Source of the DNA: a virus
Length of the DNA: 29,331 nt
Virus record (IMG/VR): IMGVR_UViG_3300025759_000479
Location: 1 to 29,331 of that record
Direction: 5' to 3' (one strand)
Shown: positions 3,822 to 13,836 of the stretch, one piece after another
How the letters are laid out: each line of letters begins with the position of its first letter
Position numbering within the stretch: position 1 is the first letter of the stretch
Position numbers and translations under genes: made by a program
The notes under the pieces: model-generated
Databases searched by the model: none
The model's input: only the letters and a program-made list of their open reading frames with translations
Told to the model about the DNA's origin: nothing

Positions 3822-4069
3822 AAACGTATCGAATATTTTTCAGAACTTACAACGAAAGCTATATAGACATCAATGCGGAGGGCGCTGACGAGGCGCTCGA
3901 GCATTTTGATAAACAAACATACGATCAACGGGCTATCAAGTCTGTTGATCACCATGTGAACCGTGAGCCCACGCACGTAAGCGAGATTCTTTTTAACGCA
4001 AGCGAGGAGCGCAAGGCTTTTAATATTTTCAACGAAATCAATAAGGAGCAAGCAAATTATGGTAGGTAA
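3818..4069 (+). CDS. Small protein next to the exonuclease, unknown function
   Basis: The gene encodes 83 residues, with GGAGGT just upstream of the ATG and a four-base overlap with the preceding gene. It begins with a beta-strand pair (MKTYRIFFRTYNESYIDINA) and the segment AEGADEALEHFDKQTYD, a strand-helix arrangement common in small phage proteins that handle a substrate through a short alpha/beta fold. The C-terminal half is charged (NASEERKAFNIFNEINKEQ). It overlaps the exonuclease gene by 11 bases and carries that gene's AAGGAG ribosome site inside its end. It may be a partner of the recombination module, by position only. Confidence 0.55.
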   Translation: MKTYRIFFRTYNESYIDINAEGADEALEHFDKQTYDQRAIKSVDHHVNREPTHVSEILFNASEERKAFNIFNEINKEQANYGR

Positions 4070-5015
4070 AGTCACACCATACGACATTATGACGGGCAGT
4101 AATCTGCCCGCCATGTTCGGTTTAAACATCTTTAAGAGTGCCAACGAGGTGCTACAAGAGGCTATTGACTACGTCAACGGCAACACACCTCAAGGTATTA
4201 ATGCAAACGAGGCTATGAATTGGGGCAACACCCTTGAACCCGTCATAGCACAACAAGCCTCAGTTCGATTAGGGCTAGGTAATCCAAGAACCAAGCATGA
4301 GAAGGCTGTATTCCATAAAGAGTGGCCTTTAGCTGTATCGCTTGACGCGACCGTTATGGGTGACGGGCGAGAGCAATACACCGACATTGATAAAGGCATT
4401 ATTGTTATGAATGATGACAAGCCTATCAAGCTTGACGGTGAGGGCTGTTTAGAGATCAAGGTTACGGGGAGCGAGGCAGAGTATGAACCCGCCCCGTATC
4501 GTGGCGTGTATCAACTGCAAGCGCAAATGGCATGCACCAATAATAGTTGGGGTGCTATCTGCGTTTTGTATCGAGGCACGATCATGCGTATCTTTATTTA
4601 CAAGCCTGAGCCTGAAATGCTTGAGCGTATCAAGGAAGTCGCTGAAGATTTTGCACGTCGTGTAGAAAAATACAGACAAGCTGAGGAAATAGAGTGGTAT
4701 GACATTTCCACAACGCGTGAGGCCTCTGCTATTTATGACGAAGCATTTGATAAAACCATAGAAGTGCCACAACTTGAAGATGATCTCAAGTGGCTGCTCG
4801 AAATCAATCAAGACTTGCGTCAACTCAATGAGTCTAAAGGCGTTGTTGAGGCTAGGGTTATGGCACAACTTAAAGAGGCAAGGTTTGGTCGATCAAAAAC
4901 ATTTATGGTTGAGTGGGGCAGTAGGACTTACAAGCCTCAACCTGAAAAAGTTATACCCGCCAAAGAGGGTTATACCGTTAGAAATAAAACACTTAAAGTA
5001 AAGGAGATTAAGTAA
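4059..5015 (+). CDS. YqaJ/lambda-exonuclease-like recombination nuclease
   Basis: This 318-residue protein has a YqaJ-type viral recombinase fold of the PD-(D/E)XK nuclease superfamily. Visible active-site pieces in order are E60 in NWGNTLEP, D96 in AVSLDAT, E132-I-K134 in CLEIKV, and Q152/Q154 in YQLQAQ. The C-terminal third is helical and charged. Such enzymes resect one strand of double-stranded DNA from ends, leaving 3' tails for an annealing protein. That partner, ERF, is encoded next with a one-base TAATG overlap, so the pair forms a phage two-component recombination system used in repair, concatemer formation or exchange. AAGGAG ten bases before the ATG supports this start. The function is well supported, the exact substrate preference is not. 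Confidence 0.9.
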   Translation: MVGKVTPYDIMTGSNLPAMFGLNIFKSANEVLQEAIDYVNGNTPQGINANEAMNWGNTLEPVIAQQASVRLGLGNPRTKHEKAVFHKEWPLAVSLDATVMGDGREQYTDIDKGIIVMNDDKPIKLDGEGCLEIKVTGSEAEYEPAPYRGVYQLQAQMACTNNSWGAICVLYRGTIMRIFIYKPEPEMLERIKEVAEDFARRVEKYRQAEEIEWYDISTTREASAIYDEAFDKTIEVPQLEDDLKWLLEINQDLRQLNESKGVVEARVMAQLKEARFGRSKTFMVEWGSRTYKPQPEKVIPAKEGYTVRNKTLKVKEIK

Positions 5016-5416
5016 TGGAAAACATTGCTAAGGCTTTTGTGCAAGCCCAAAAAGATTTTGCACCCGCGCTAACAGATAGCACCAATCCACATTTTAGAAA
5101 TCGATATGTATCTTTACAAGGTTCAATCGAAGCCGTAATTGGCTCACTTCATAAAAATGGCATAGCTTTAATACAGAAAACGCATGATTGTGATACGGGC
5201 GTGCGCGTGGAAACAATCCTTATCCACACTTCTGGGGAAAGTATGTCTGGTGGAGTGATTCATGTTCCCGCTGACAAACAAACACCGCAAGGTTACGGCT
5301 CGGCTTTAACCTATGCGCGTCGTTATAGTTTGATGAGCGCTTGCGGAATCGCACCTGAAGATGACGATGGCAATCTTGCAGAGCAAGCCGTAAAAGCAAA
5401 AAAGAATTTCGCCTGA
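5015..5416 (+). CDS. erf: ERF-family single-strand annealing protein (short form)
   Basis: This 133-residue protein carries the ERF core: NPHFRNRYVSLQGS (24-37), GIALIQ (49-54), HTSGES (71-76), then QTPQGYGSALTYARRYSL (89-106) and GIAPEDDDGN (111-120). ERF proteins bind single-stranded DNA, form rings and anneal complementary strands, here presumably the tails made by the YqaJ-like nuclease upstream. AAGGAG at 5001-5006 fixes the start, and the ATG overlaps the preceding stop (TAATG). The protein is shorter than the roughly 200 residues of P22 Erf because it stops right after the conserved core. The last codons contain an A-AAA-AAG slippery site and a hairpin, so a longer frameshifted form of 219 residues is likely. 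Confidence 0.88.
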   Translation: MENIAKAFVQAQKDFAPALTDSTNPHFRNRYVSLQGSIEAVIGSLHKNGIALIQKTHDCDTGVRVETILIHTSGESMSGGVIHVPADKQTPQGYGSALTYARRYSLMSACGIAPEDDDGNLAEQAVKAKKNFA

Positions 5417-5431
5417 TTCTGCCAGGCGGAG
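5398..5431 (+). promoter_or_regulatory. Candidate programmed -1 ribosomal frameshift site in erf
   Basis: In the ERF reading frame the codons GCA AAA AAG contain the heptamer A-AAA-AAG at 5398-5404, the most efficient -1 slippery sequence known in bacteria and the one used by E. coli dnaX. Five bases later comes a perfect stem CGCCTG (5410-5415) / CAGGCG (5423-5428) with a seven-base loop. Three weaker pairs (5407-5409 with 5429-5431) extend it. The zero-frame stop TGA (5414-5416) sits in the stem. A -1 slip joins residue 130 to a frame open to 5673, giving 219 residues. The hairpin also covers the GGCGGAG that would serve the downstream GTG start. Confidence 0.7.
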
Positions 5432-5439
5432 CAACGGAA

Positions 5440-5673
5440 GTGCTCGCAGAAGATCATCTATTCATAAAAAAATATGAGCAGACTGTTCGAGCAATTCGTG
5501 ACAAGCCCGATAGATTAGCAAGTCAAAAGAAAGAGTATTTGGGTGAGTTTTTAAAGGCAAACAAGCCTACGCGTCAATTACTTCATGGCGCACAAAACTT
5601 GATTATCAGTAATTTAGTTGAAGATACTATTAAAAAACTTGACAAGGAAATAGCAAATGAACCTAAACAATGA
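5440..5673 (+). CDS. C-terminal extension of ERF in the -1 frame, or separate small protein
   Basis: Read as an independent gene, this frame starts with GTG at 5440, eight bases after GGCGGAG, and gives 77 residues. The frame is open back to 5365, upstream of the ERF stop, with no ATG, GTG or TTG before 5440. It can therefore also be reached by a -1 slip at 5398-5404. The extra residues (EFRLILPGGATE) then join directly to VLAEDHLFIKKYEQTVRAIR. The product is basic and helical, like the accessory C-terminal regions of annealing proteins that vary between families. Both expression modes may operate. It overlaps the next gene by 17 bases. Confidence 0.6.
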   Translation: MLAEDHLFIKKYEQTVRAIRDKPDRLASQKKEYLGEFLKANKPTRQLLHGAQNLIISNLVEDTIKKLDKEIANEPKQ

Positions 5674-6025
5674 AAGTAATTATGTTCAGCAAATACTCAA
5701 TCGCCTTGAGTTATTTGATATTGATGTTGATATTATTAAACAACATCATAATGAAAGCCGTATCTTTTTGGCCATACTCATGCGTGCTATGAGTGATGTC
5801 GCCCTGGATAGTTCCCCACGCGTGACAAGACTATCTGCATTATGGTGGCTCATGTTTGAAACACGCAAGCATCAAGTATGGATAAGAGAGTTTGGGGAAA
5901 AGCTACTTAACATTGATCATGATTATATGTTAGGTATGCTACGCGAACATTTGGGCGAGGCTAAGTTTGAGGCCTTAGCAGAACAAGCTAAAAATCTTCC
6001 TGAAAAAAAGAGAGAATGGGCATGA
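5657..6025 (+). CDS. Helical protein of unknown function in the recombination module
   Basis: This 122-residue protein has an ATG eight bases after AAGGA. It is largely helical: YVQQILNRLELFDIDVDIIK, a segment IFLAILMRAMSDVALDSSPR, an aromatic stretch LSALWWLMFETRKHQVW and a charged tail ending NLPEKKREWA. No Cys cluster, nuclease or ATPase motif is seen. The middle is hydrophobic, but with Asp and Arg spacing more like a buried helical core than a membrane span. Near its end the in-frame codons GAA AAA AAG contain an A-AAA-AAG heptamer (6004-6010), from which a -1 slip would run into the nuclease gene. It overlaps that gene by four bases. Confidence 0.6.
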   Translation: MNLNNESNYVQQILNRLELFDIDVDIIKQHHNESRIFLAILMRAMSDVALDSSPRVTRLSALWWLMFETRKHQVWIREFGEKLLNIDHDYMLGMLREHLGEAKFEALAEQAKNLPEKKREWA

Positions 6026-6966: not shown

Positions 6967-7194
6967 TCATTTTTGTGATTGAACATACAAAACAGGCTGA
7001 TTGTGATCAATATAGATATATTTGTGTTTAAAATCTTTAGGAAGGTTAATAAAATCTTCGTGCATGCAAATTGTTCGTAAATCGGGTATAAAATTTTCAG
7101 TTGCATAAGCGCGAGCAACTTCACAATTTAAAAATGTTCCAACATATTGAGGCTCACCACCCATCACAAGCAATAAAACAAAATGAAGTTCCAT
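6967..7194 (-). CDS. Small protein with hydrophobic N-terminus and Cys pair
   Basis: I start at the ATG at 7194, one base after the stop of the upstream gene, giving 75 residues. The N-terminus MELHFVLLLVMGGEPQYVG is hydrophobic and could be a signal or beta-strand. Then come TFLNCEVARAYATENF and, after a short loop, TICMHEDFINLP. The F-x-x-C-x-x-A pattern and a later Cys are shared with the small protein at 8133-8318, suggesting a distant pair. There is no visible ribosome site, so translation is probably coupled to the preceding gene. It is the last leftward gene. Function is unknown; an envelope-located accessory protein is possible. Confidence 0.55.
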   Translation of the reverse strand: MELHFVLLLVMGGEPQYVGTFLNCEVARAYATENFIPDLRTICMHEDFINLPKDFKHKYIYIDHNQPVLYVQSQK

Positions 7195-9696: not shown

Positions 9697-10026
9697 TTAT
9701 TCTCCTTTTATAGCATTGATTTCAGTTTGTAAAGCCTCTACTTTCGCAGAGAGTTCTTTGACAGCATTGACTAGATACCAAGTCATGTTGTCTGGGTCTA
9801 CTCGTAATGCACCAGTAGTTTCTTCTTTTACCATATCAGGTAAAACTTCTTGTATCTCTTGAGCAATCACACCAAGCTGTGTGCCTTGTTTATCAATTAC
9901 ACTTTCCTTAGGCAAGTCTGTAACTTCATCTTTAGTTCTATATTCAAAGTTTTTAACTTGTACTTGTTTAATTGCATCAAGACCAGTATTATTATCTACA
10001 ATGTTTTTCTTGAGCCTTCTATCAGA
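9697..10026 (-). other. Peptidase S74 (intramolecular chaperone) domain of the fibre
   Basis: The final 109 residues begin with SDRRLKKN, the hallmark of S74 domains, and contain QLGVIAQEIQEVLPDMV and a C-terminal heptad helix (VNAVKELSAKVEALQTEINA). In endosialidase-type fibres, cleavage occurs just before this Ser, with the Lys in RLK assisting. The mature fibre is therefore predicted to lack this part (Ser1271 to 1379). Confidence 0.8.
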
Positions 10027-13000
10027 TACAGTAGCCCATGATGATGAATTGTTACCTTGATAAACACTACCGCCAGTACCACCAGCAACAATATATCCTG
10101 TATTAGAACCTTTACCTGCGCCACCATTAGCAGCACTTAGCATAAATTCCCCAGTAACACCAGAGCCAGATGCTGCAGCACCATACCCAACATAAGTATT
10201 AAAACTACCAGTGGTTAATGTACTACCAGCTGACTGCCCCAGAGCAATATTATATTGACCTGTGGTAACACTTGGCATAGTATTCCCACCAAAAGCCATA
10301 TTCTGAATTCCTGTGGTGTTGTTTTTTAATGAATCATATCCAACAGCAGTATTCCATACAATTGCAGAGCCTGTATTATTAAAACTTTGTAATGAGCTAG
10401 TACCTATTGCTACTAATCTTTGTCCAGTTGTATTAAGATATAAAGCTCTGTAGCCAATAGCAAGGTTGTGACTACCAGTCGTGTTTCTTGAACCAGCTCC
10501 AGCACCAATAAATGTTAATCTACCACCTGTTGTATTACTATGACCAACAGCATATCCAGCACCGCTTTCAAGAGGCCCTATAAATGTATTTGATTCGCCT
10601 GTAGTGTTGTTTTGTCCAGCAGCCATACCCACAGCACAATTGTTTTCTGCAGTATTATCATACAATGCCTGATAACCCACTGCTGTGTTATAATTTGCAG
10701 TGGTGTTGGAGTAAAGGGCTTGTTTACCTAAAGCAGTGTTTCTTATTCCAGTATTATTATATAGGGCTTGGTAGCCAACAGCTGAATTATCATCTGCAGT
10801 GGTGTTAAAGTAGAGGGCGTTATAACCAACAGCTACATTAGAACCGCCTGTAGTATTAGATGTTAATGCGGCACGACCAACTGCTGTGTTGTAGTTACCT
10901 GTCGTATTATTATGTCCAGCAAGATAACCAATAAAATGACCATATAAACCTGTGGTTGAATCTTCACCAGCACCATAACCTATAGCAACCATTTGGTTGT
11001 TAGTATAAGAATAACCAGCTCGATGACCTATAGCCACATTACGTTCACCAGTTGTAAGTCGTAGTGCGTAATGACCAACGGCTACATTAAAATCACTAGA
11101 GACATTATCTGCTAAAGCAACATTACCGATAGCAACATTAGAGTCACCACCTGTATTATCTTCTAATGCTCTATTCCCAATGGCTGTATTGTTAAATCCA
11201 ACTGTATTGCTAGATAAAGATTGATAACCTACAGCTGTGTTTTCATATCCAGTAGTGTTAGATTCTAGTGCTTCACGACCTATAGCTACATTATTATTGC
11301 CACTTGTATTAGAAAGCATCGCTTCAAAACCCACTGCTGTATTATTATCAGCTGTATTAGCTGCTAATGCTTGTTTACCAACAGCTGTGTTTGCTCCTCC
11401 AGTTGTAGCAGAGCTTAACGCCTCAGAACCAACTGCTGTATTACTTGAGCCTGATGTAACTAATACTCCAGCATTATATCCAACAGCAGTGTTGTCATTA
11501 GTTGTAGAATTTGCCAATGCTTGATAACCTACAGCTGTAAGTCTTGCTCCTGTTTGATTATCATATAACGCTTGATACCCAACAGCAGTATTATTAAATG
11601 CAGTGGTGTTGGAGTAGAGGGCTTCTCTACCTAATGCTGTATTATAATTACCAGTGGTGTTGGAGTAGAGTGCAGTGTATCCTAATGCGGTGTTATATGA
11701 GCCTGTTGTGTTTGATTGAGCTGCACTACGACCTATAAATACATTCTGCGTTCCTGATGTATTGTCTTGACCAGAGCCTTGACCAAGTGCAGTGTTGTTT
11801 GGAGCTGTGTTGTTTAATAAAGAGTGGAATCCTACAGCAGTATTGTATCCAGCACTTGTATCTGAATATAATGCTTTATAACCAACAGCGGTACTATTTG
11901 TACCAGTCGTATTACTATACAATGACTGATAACCAACAGCTGTGTTGTTAGATGCAATGGTGTTACTTGTTAATGCTTGCATACCAACAGCTACATTATT
12001 GCTTCCTGTAGTATTTGAAAATAAAGAATGTCTGCCAACAGCGGTATTTTCAAGACCTGAAATATTATTAAACATAGATGATTTTCCAACAGCAGTGTTC
12101 CAATATCCTGTTGTAGTGTTTCTTAAAGCATTAGCACCAAGTGCTGTTTGGTCATTTCCAGTAGTTATGCTTAATAGTGCATTAATACCTAAACCTGTAT
12201 TATTAGATAAGCTGCTTGCACCTTTACCTACAGTGAGTCCGTTGATGGTGGCATCTGTAGAGAATGTTTGTGCTGCGGTAAATGTTTGTACGACATCTAG
12301 TTTTGCTGTGTCTGCATCGTATGCTTGGACTGTTGAACCAATGTCTGAATCAAGTACAGCATCTGATCCAAGAGCTGTATTCACGTCAGCAGCAGATAAA
12401 GTGACTGCACCTGTTCTAGTATTGAATGAGGTTACCGCACCAGATGCAGTAAAAGCAGCTGCGTCCCATGCACTACCTGTCCATACATAAAGTTGATCAC
12501 CTGTTGTGTTCCAATATAAAGCACCTGTGAGTAATGCATCACCATCATTATCTGTAGCGGGTGCAGAAGCCTTAGCTCCTAGATAACGATCATCAAATGA
12601 GTCATAACTAGCAGCAGCAGCGGCAGCTGATGCAGCAGCAGCAGAAGAAGATGTTGAGTTAGAAACAGTTAGCCAAGTTGATCCTGTATAAACATACATA
12701 TCATTAGCAACAGTATTAAAATACAATGCACCTGTAACGAGAGCATCGCCATCATTATCAACAGTTGGCGCTGAACTTTTCTGTCCTAAATATCTGTCAT
12801 CAAAATCATCATATGAGGCAGCAGCAGCCGTTGCGCTATTGGAAGCATCACTTGCGTAGGTAGCCGCAGAAGTTGCACTTGACCCCGCAGAGGTTGCTGA
12901 TGAAGCAGCAGCCGTTGCACTTGTTGATGCATTGCTTGCACTTGTAGCCGCAGCACTTGCTGAGGTAGATGCATTTGTGGCTGAGGTTGAAGCAGACGAT

Positions 13001-13836
13001 GCGCTTGATGACGCAGCACTTGCTTGTGTAGTAGCCGTTGTAGCACTCGTTGCAGCATTGCTTGCTGAGGTTGATGCAGAGGTTGCGCTCGTAGCGGCAG
13101 CGGTAGCACTTGATGCAGCGGCAGTTGCACTTGAAGCGGCAGCAGAAGCTGAAGAAGCCGCAGAAGCTGCGTCTACAACTAAATCCCATTTAGCGTAATC
13201 AGCATTACTTGTAAGTGGTAATGAACCTGATGATGTATGTGATGTTAAACAAATATAAATGTTGTCATTGGTTGTATCTTTAACAATATCTAATTGAACA
13301 TAAGCTGTGCTTGCTGCCCAATCACCACGCCAGTTACCCACACTCTGCACAGCTGTTGGATTACCATCAGAATCAAATGATAAAAATTTATTCGCACGTG
13401 TTGTATTAACAGGTAAAACCATGTCAACTGTGGTTGGATCAGTATTAGGCGCGCGTAATGATCGATCAGCTTGTTCTTGTACTTGCTGAACAAAAATAGT
13501 TTGACTATCAAATTCATCATTAAGAGAGGTAGCAAAGAGTGGGCCACCAGTAGTAAAGTCTGTTGATCTCTCAATAGTTCTATCACCAATAATGGTAATA
13601 CGATCAGAAGCAGTAGGTGTGCTAGGAACATTAGTGCCTACAACAATCGTGACAGAACCTGTGCCATCACCATTGATGGTAACAGTATAGTCTGTCGTAA
13701 GTGTCAGTTCAGTTGTATTAAAATAAACAGCAATATCAGTTTGTGCAAGCACCTCAAATGCAAATGCATATGGGCCTACACCTGATGAGCCTGTGTATAC
13801 TATACGTCTAGTGGTTGATGAGATGTCTATAGCCAT
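9697..13836 (-). CDS. Large tail fibre/host-recognition protein with S74 chaperone
   Basis: This 1379-residue virion protein starts with ATG at 13836 after GAGGAA. Residues 1-150 resemble the T7 gp17 N-terminal anchor (TTRRIVYTGSSGVGPYAF). About 168-215 resembles a small carbohydrate-binding module (WRGDWAASTAYVQLDIV). About 219-340 is Ala/Ser/Thr-rich coiled coil. Two near-identical modules follow (YDDFDDRYLGQK and YDSFDDRYLGAK). Residues about 540-1220 hold about 40 repeats of about 17 residues (AVGYQALYSNTTGNYNT type), like YadA-head beta-rolls. The last 109 residues form a peptidase S74 intramolecular chaperone starting SDRRLKKN (Ser1271), which normally trimerises the fibre and then cleaves itself off. 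Its role is host binding. Part of its length may be gained or lost by recombination between repeats. Confidence 0.9.
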   Translation of the reverse strand: MAIDISSTTRRIVYTGSSGVGPYAFAFEVLAQTDIAVYFNTTELTLTTDYTVTINGDGTGSVTIVVGTNVPSTPTASDRITIIGDRTIERSTDFTTGGPLFATSLNDEFDSQTIFVQQVQEQADRSLRAPNTDPTTVDMVLPVNTTRANKFLSFDSDGNPTAVQSVGNWRGDWAASTAYVQLDIVKDTTNDNIYICLTSHTSSGSLPLTSNADYAKWDLVVDAASAASSASAAASSATAAASSATAAATSATSASTSASNAATSATTATTQASAASSSASSASTSATNASTSASAAATSASNASTSATAAASSATSAGSSATSAATYASDASNSATAAAASYDDFDDRYLGQKSSAPTVDNDGDALVTGALYFNTVANDMYVYTGSTWLTVSNSTSSSAAAASAAAAAASYDSFDDRYLGAKASAPATDNDGDALLTGALYWNTTGDQLYVWTGSAWDAAAFTASGAVTSFNTRTGAVTLSAADVNTALGSDAVLDSDIGSTVQAYDADTAKLDVVQTFTAAQTFSTDATINGLTVGKGASSLSNNTGLGINALLSITTGNDQTALGANALRNTTTGYWNTAVGKSSMFNNISGLENTAVGRHSLFSNTTGSNNVAVGMQALTSNTIASNNTAVGYQSLYSNTTGTNSTAVGYKALYSDTSAGYNTAVGFHSLLNNTAPNNTALGQGSGQDNTSGTQNVFIGRSAAQSNTTGSYNTALGYTALYSNTTGNYNTALGREALYSNTTAFNNTAVGYQALYDNQTGARLTAVGYQALANSTTNDNTAVGYNAGVLVTSGSSNTAVGSEALSSATTGGANTAVGKQALAANTADNNTAVGFEAMLSNTSGNNNVAIGREALESNTTGYENTAVGYQSLSSNTVGFNNTAIGNRALEDNTGGDSNVAIGNVALADNVSSDFNVAVGHYALRLTTGERNVAIGHRAGYSYTNNQMVAIGYGAGEDSTTGLYGHFIGYLAGHNNTTGNYNTAVGRAALTSNTTGGSNVAVGYNALYFNTTADDNSAVGYQALYNNTGIRNTALGKQALYSNTTANYNTAVGYQALYDNTAENNCAVGMAAGQNNTTGESNTFIGPLESGAGYAVGHSNTTGGRLTFIGAGAGSRNTTGSHNLAIGYRALYLNTTGQRLVAIGTSSLQSFNNTGSAIVWNTAVGYDSLKNNTTGIQNMAFGGNTMPSVTTGQYNIALGQSAGSTLTTGSFNTYVGYGAAASGSGVTGEFMLSAANGGAGKGSNTGYIVAGGTGGSVYQGNNSSSWATVSDRRLKKNIVDNNTGLDAIKQVQVKNFEYRTKDEVTDLPKESVIDKQGTQLGVIAQEIQEVLPDMVKEETTGALRVDPDNMTWYLVNAVKELSAKVEALQTEINAIKGE
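10180..12215 (-). repeat. About 40 coding repeats of about 51 bases in the fibre gene
   Basis: I counted about 40 units of roughly 17 residues, each with a Gly after an Ala-Val, Ala-Ile, Ala-Leu or Phe-Ile pair (AVG, AIG, ALG, FIG), then an Ala-Leu-Tyr-type pair and Asn-Thr-Thr-Gly. A few units are one residue shorter or several longer. At DNA level the period is near 51 bases. It is degenerate enough to be coding, but similar enough to allow unequal recombination. The pattern is that of a YadA-like beta-roll. Confidence 0.85.
12440..12825 (-). repeat. Tandem duplicated fibre module
   Basis: Two copies of a module lie back to back. The upstream copy begins YDDFDDRYLGQKSSAP and the second YDSFDDRYLGAKASAP. 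Each continues with DNDGDAL-TGALY-NT and ends in a YV-TGS-W pattern. Between them lies a short Ala/Ser linker. It is a clear internal duplication of the fibre shaft. Confidence 0.8.

Follow-up and report, generated by a model that had tools for sequence, protein, structure and literature searches.

A dnaX-type −1 programmed ribosomal frameshift inferred in the ERF annealing-protein gene of a largely uncultivated phage family

The window analyzed here is the whole 29,331-nucleotide stretch of viral DNA in IMG/VR record IMGVR_UViG_3300025759_000479. It carries on its plus strand, at 5015–5416, a gene whose 133-aa product matches the ERF family (PF04404: E = 6e-17, 62 bits against a cut-off of 25; PHROG 2324: E = 1.6e-39). 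By these profile matches the gene is one for an ERF-family single-strand annealing protein; annealing activity and ring formation are inferred. A YqaJ/RecE-like exonuclease is the usual partner of an annealing protein, and such a gene (4059–5015, plus strand; PF09588, E = 5e-10; PHROG 434) lies directly upstream of ERF in the window, as it does in the cultured Methylophilales phage MEP301. The next gene in the list of open reading frames (5657–6025, plus strand) is of unknown function, with no match in PHROGs or Pfam. Elsewhere in the window, the minus strand at 9697–13836 encodes a 1379-aa tail protein with many NTAVGYQAL-like repeats and a C-terminal endosialidase-type chaperone (Peptidase_S74).

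Toward its end the ERF frame reads GCA (5396–5398), AAA (5399–5401), AAG (5402–5404), AAT, TTC, GCC and TGA (5414–5416, plus strand), a codon reading that bears out the original prediction of a slippery heptamer, A-AAA-AAG (5398–5404, plus strand), in phase with the ERF codons in the X-XXY-YYZ register. A spacer of 5 nt (5405–5409) separates the heptamer from a plus-strand hairpin at 5410–5428, whose perfect 6-bp stem, CGCCTG (5410–5415) with CAGGCG (5423–5428), and seven-base loop, ATTCTGC (5416–5422), are present in the sequence as had been described. The 0-frame stop codon had been placed within the stem; this holds for its TG, but its A is the first base of the loop. The same prediction was right that the −1 frame is open from 5365 to 5673 without an ATG, GTG or TTG before the GTG at 5440, and that a slip would yield 219 residues instead of 133. 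The putative extension (5404–5673, plus strand) comprises 89 codons and a stop, and its end overlaps the next gene by 17 bases. The hairpin folds better than synonymous −1-frame shuffles (over 30 nt, −10.1 kcal/mol vs. a mean of −4.0; z = −3.0, p = 0.01), and with its 5-nt spacer it meets the requirement of dnaX-type −1 frameshifting for a stem-loop 5–8 nt after the heptamer. An internal Shine-Dalgarno sequence about 10 nt upstream is not found in the window, where the best pairing (−2.1 kcal/mol) equals background. Nor is AAAAAAG enriched in the window (14 found vs. 14.1 expected), so the case for this site rests on comparison with its relatives.

Relatives of the ERF gene were gathered by searches blind to the heptamer and by one DNA pattern, which gave many chance matches among the matches listed and was kept out of the unbiased counts. 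A profile of the C-terminal domain encoded by the extension was used to find the frame of that domain relative to ERF; it lies in the −1 frame (layout A) at 74 loci and in frame (layout B) at 28, many of the loci being redundant. All 74 of the former, including 12, 3, 27 and 2 from separate heptamer-blind searches, have an in-phase heptamer 7–16 nt ahead of the 0-frame stop, and this stop falls 0–3 codons past the heptamer in all layout-A relatives. With redundancy included, the junction heptamer is in phase at 137 loci, 69 of layout A and 68 of layout B. By comparison, it occurs once in 17740 codon positions further upstream in these genes and, in ERF genes that lack this C-terminal domain, 4 times in 7574 codon positions after the core. 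This excess of the heptamer over chance, a comparative argument drawn from sequences alone, is decisive. The loci reduce to 23 (layout A) and 11 (layout B) lineages at 85% nucleotide identity, and layout A is represented by 30, 23, and 17 sequences at 95, 85, and 75%, respectively. The codon before AAA AAG is ATA, GTA, GCA, ACA, CCA or TCA, specifying six amino acids (I, V, A, T, P, S), and it always ends in A, a base with a background frequency of 0.25–0.59. The comparison with related phages that had been proposed as a check thus finds the heptamer and the −1 frame kept without exception. As judged from substitution patterns, the extension itself is under purifying selection: the median dN/dS of the −1 frame is 0.13 (Nei-Gojobori, 117 pairs), that of the 0 frame is 1.1 and that of the +1 frame is 2.4; for the window (L001 in our numbering of loci) against its relative L083 the extension gives 0.26.

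The site coincides with a boundary in the predicted protein. Whole-protein folding was examined in the in-frame homologue L019, not in the whole window protein, and MEP301 was left out of structure prediction. The core of L019 matches the solved phage ERF-type protein Gp77 (9y6u) by profile (3e-20) and by Foldseek (E = 1.8e-5), and in its AlphaFold2 model the site falls in a disordered linker (residues 117–140, pLDDT <50) between the ERF core and the C-terminal domain. The C-terminal domain of the window protein is predicted to form a beta-hairpin and helices (pLDDT 82.6), the first strand of which begins right after the slip site. No trustworthy relative of this domain was found in Pfam, PHROGs or the PDB, by sequence or by fold, where only weak coiled-coil matches were obtained.

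The in-frame homologues mirror this arrangement. An in-phase heptamer is present at the same junction in 24 of the 28, L034 having A-AAA-AAA, and the four exceptions (L027, L033, L049, and L078) have a longer, different linker; the idea of in-frame relatives without the heptamer, for which only the vicinity of the 0-frame stop had been examined, was accordingly rejected. In layout B a −1 slip would reach a stop after 2–4 codons, and the predicted sizes are alike in both layouts (short form 133–156 aa, long form 202–236 aa). A −1 stop occurs within four codons by chance at 41% of positions, so that the stop is weak as independent evidence and the case for layout B lies more in the conserved heptamer. 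Because the site also occurs in relatives with an in-frame C-terminal part, the products are better described as a core that either carries or lacks a small domain made of a beta-hairpin and helices; the two ERF forms of the original inference are supported by the comparison, and its description of a basic helical C-terminal domain fits less well. In a tree of ERF cores, layout-A and layout-B genes together are set apart from the rest by a single branch (support 80/81), and five changes between layouts are needed, at least three of them forced by strongly supported branches. The near neighbors L002 (layout A) and L019 (layout B) have a one-base difference in the spacer, AAAAAAG-CCATTA-GCCTG vs. 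AAAAAAG-CAATATA-GCCTG; apart from this, the DNA identity of their C-terminal domains is only about one half, so domain exchange may also have contributed to this switch.

Signals around the heptamer are conserved less uniformly than the heptamer itself. Folding relative to synonymous shuffles of the coding frame has a mean z of −1.96 over 54 nt in layout A (n = 23), and relative to synonymous shuffles in layout B a mean z of −1.17 over 30 nt and −0.49 over 54 nt (n = 15). One type of layout-A hairpin, GCCTG/CAGGC with a seven-base loop, is found in the window, L083, L002, L137, L238, L025, and L144; another, CCTCAATC/GATTGAGG, is found in L015, L016, L026, L028, L210, L213, and L217. Covariation in the first type is modest (nine sequences, three with a double change): one pair is changed from G-C to C-G in L025, L144, and L188, and there is in addition a U-A/U-G pair. 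L150 and L230 lack a noteworthy hairpin, for several layout-B members no hairpin lies within 30 nt, and a clear one is absent from some members of either layout; conservation of the hairpin, which had been expected of related phages, was thus met in that it is conserved or replaced by another in most lineages, but not in all. Synonymous sites near the heptamer are constrained in layout B, where 7 of 9 are invariant in columns 0–12 vs. 21 of 78 elsewhere (p = 0.004), and in the second hairpin type of layout A (4 of 9 vs. 3 of 29, p = 0.04). No consistent upstream Shine-Dalgarno-like stimulator was found in the family, and as a general stimulator an internal Shine-Dalgarno sequence is unsupported, being strong only in L159, L015, and L328; such a sequence is an accessory and not a requirement, since the cso2 frameshift appears to have none (PMC5009743). 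L159 has a near-perfect Shine-Dalgarno sequence, GGAGGTGAT (−15 kcal/mol), just upstream of the heptamer at about 7059–7075 on the minus strand; its GGAGG ends 7 nt before the heptamer, and L159 is the sole member with an obvious upstream stimulator.

The break in frame could in principle be a sequencing error or a mark of a decaying pseudogene, that is, a plain fusion gene minus one base; A runs are error-prone and layouts A and B are one base apart. However, the site of the window is identical in an independent metagenome assembly (L082), and L083, with an extension 72% identical to that of the window, keeps the heptamer, TGA and −1 frame despite several substitutions. The closest isolated relative, MEP301, has the same heptamer, 0-frame stop and −1 domain in its ERF gene, gp06 (L085 2589–3232, equivalent to MW452941 2654–3297), and this isolate was sequenced with Illumina and Sanger methods (PMC8024684). 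Since it is common to independent assemblies, the diverged L083 and a cultured phage, the site is not an error, and with 23 lineages carrying it and an extension under such low dN/dS this explanation can practically be dismissed; a run of seven As, which was to have refuted the original prediction, is contradicted by the same assemblies and isolate. Another reading makes the −1 ORF a separate downstream gene, whose translation would re-initiate at the ERF stop or be coupled to it (in the window, from GTG 5440), given that the ORF begins around that stop and that L228 has a −1-frame ATG overlapping it (TAATG). Yet at 68 of 69 layout-A loci the −1 frame has no ATG, GTG or TTG before the conserved LPG motif of the strand SLxLPGK, so a separate start cannot explain the conservation of this first strand, which a start at GTG 5440 would delete; the in-frame homologues are fused, and the heptamer would be left unexplained. 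A separate gene is therefore most improbable.

Slippage might instead occur during transcription, the polymerase rather than the ribosome producing both frames on the A run. A runs are capable of this and Thermus dnaX uses it (PMC5009743), but the run here has only six As where the review describes runs of nine (PMC5009743); it is never longer than the A-AAA-AAA of L034, codon phase and the final G are otherwise kept, and hairpins stand at ribosomal spacing in many lineages. Transcriptional slippage is consequently very unlikely. A less easily discounted alternative, still unlikely, accepts the frameshift as real and supposes that only one form matters: the slip would correct an indel and be tolerated as such, and the other product would be waste. 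With efficient slipping, a one-base indel in the spacer would be nearly neutral. Waste is hard to reconcile with layout B, which keeps the heptamer, and constrained synonymous sites around it, even though the full-length protein there needs no slip.

The ERF gene is very probably a dnaX-type −1 programmed ribosomal frameshift gene whose products are the core with or without the C-terminal domain, as had been predicted; the relatives' heptamer, their −1 frame and the selection on it support this reading, and use of the site is inferred in the absence of peptide, other protein or ribosome-profiling data. What is observed is the site with its frame and its conservation, the selection that acts on the extension, and the layout mirrored in relatives; from these a course of events can be proposed in which slipping in vivo, its efficiency and the function of the domain are inferred. 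At A-AAA-AAG, the P- and A-site tRNA-Lys would re-pair one base back (the tRNA-Lys set of the host is unknown), in the window presumably aided by the hairpin 5 nt further on. Without a slip, translation would end at the TGA at 5414 and give the 133-aa ERF core; with one, it would continue to 5673 and give the 219-aa long form with its C-terminal domain of about 86 residues. Slipping at tens of per cent in vivo is inferred because layouts A and B interconvert: the repeated changes suggest a rate near half, since only then would a one-base change leave the ratio of products nearly unchanged, a point also made for dnaX (PMC5009743). By analogy with Red-beta, the C-terminal domain may bind a partner, for example an SSB or the YqaJ exonuclease of the neighboring gene, and the short form would dilute this domain in mixed oligomers of core and tailed subunits. 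It is offered tentatively, with slightly more doubt than conviction, that near-equal frameshifting builds such mixed annealing oligomers and that selection holds their ratio and not the frame, hence the repeated flips between slip-gives-long and slip-gives-short.

Known systems resemble different parts of this scheme. E. coli dnaX (tau/gamma) likewise has A-AAA-AAG, a downstream stem-loop and two products with a common N-terminal part, and as in layout B its slip leads to the short form after a few codons; the arrangement of layout A, in which the slip gives the long form, is the one reported in a minority of dnaX genes (PMC5009743). The ERF protein is unrelated to the dnaX products, however, its family lacks a consistent internal Shine-Dalgarno sequence, the hairpin of the window is short (5–6 bp), and the layout has changed several times within one phage family. 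Phage lambda Red-beta, like the ERF protein described here, joins a small C-terminal domain to an annealing core and is a model for what the long form adds: C-terminally truncated Red-beta anneals but does not recombine (PMC5052646), and its C-terminal domain binds lambda exonuclease and SSB (PMC8303780). Neither of these papers describes a frameshift for Red-beta. Tail-assembly (G/GT) and capsid frameshifts of tailed phages are also programmed and add a C-terminal extension (PMC5009743), but they affect structural or assembly genes and not, as here, a recombination gene.

No programmed frameshift appears to have been described before in a phage DNA-annealing protein of the Rad52/Erf/Red-beta type, and the present one is conserved over many lineages; the mechanism, including the reversal of roles between frames seen for dnaX, was already known, and it is the gene class that appears to be new. 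In line with the original statement that no frameshift was known in an ERF gene, the literature searched, among it a review of recoding from 2016, a genome-wide survey of frameshifts and a paper on a prediction tool, contains no earlier report for Erf or another annealing protein; most subscription papers and preprints on bioRxiv lay outside the search. After dnaX, the system is a second natural case in which the frames exchange roles, and by implication these phages require two forms of the annealing protein, so that what C-terminal domains do in such proteins becomes directly testable. Annotations across this family, most of whose phages are uncultivated, are likely truncated, because the long form is unannotated in the sole cultured member: only the 133-aa 0-frame form of MEP301 is annotated, its extension of about 81 codons sits in an unannotated gap, and the paper describing the phage mentions no frameshift for ERF (PMC8024684).

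Several further observations were made among ERF loci. In L257, a Luteibacter contig, a full-length ERF gene has an in-phase A-AAA-AAG 16 nt ahead of its stop, and the −1 frame is open for 137 codons; this frame has no match to the C-terminal domain and probably belongs to an overlapping next gene. L045 and L054, from a separate ERF lineage whose C-terminal part is different, have an in-phase A-AAA-AAG 14 codons after DDDGN, with a stop 6 codons on in the −1 frame; this may be an independent case or mere chance. In Salmonella phage vB_SenS_SB28 (L086 777–1737) the ERF match spans two overlapping CDS, both called recombinase, as a result of either a frameshift or a duplication. Finally, a small conserved ORF of unknown function, with an end like YFG...GDC, overlaps the ERF start by 26–32 nt in many lineages; it is found just upstream of ERF in L016, L025, L028, L213, L217, L224, L237, and L238 and in the layout-B loci L003, L234, and L309.
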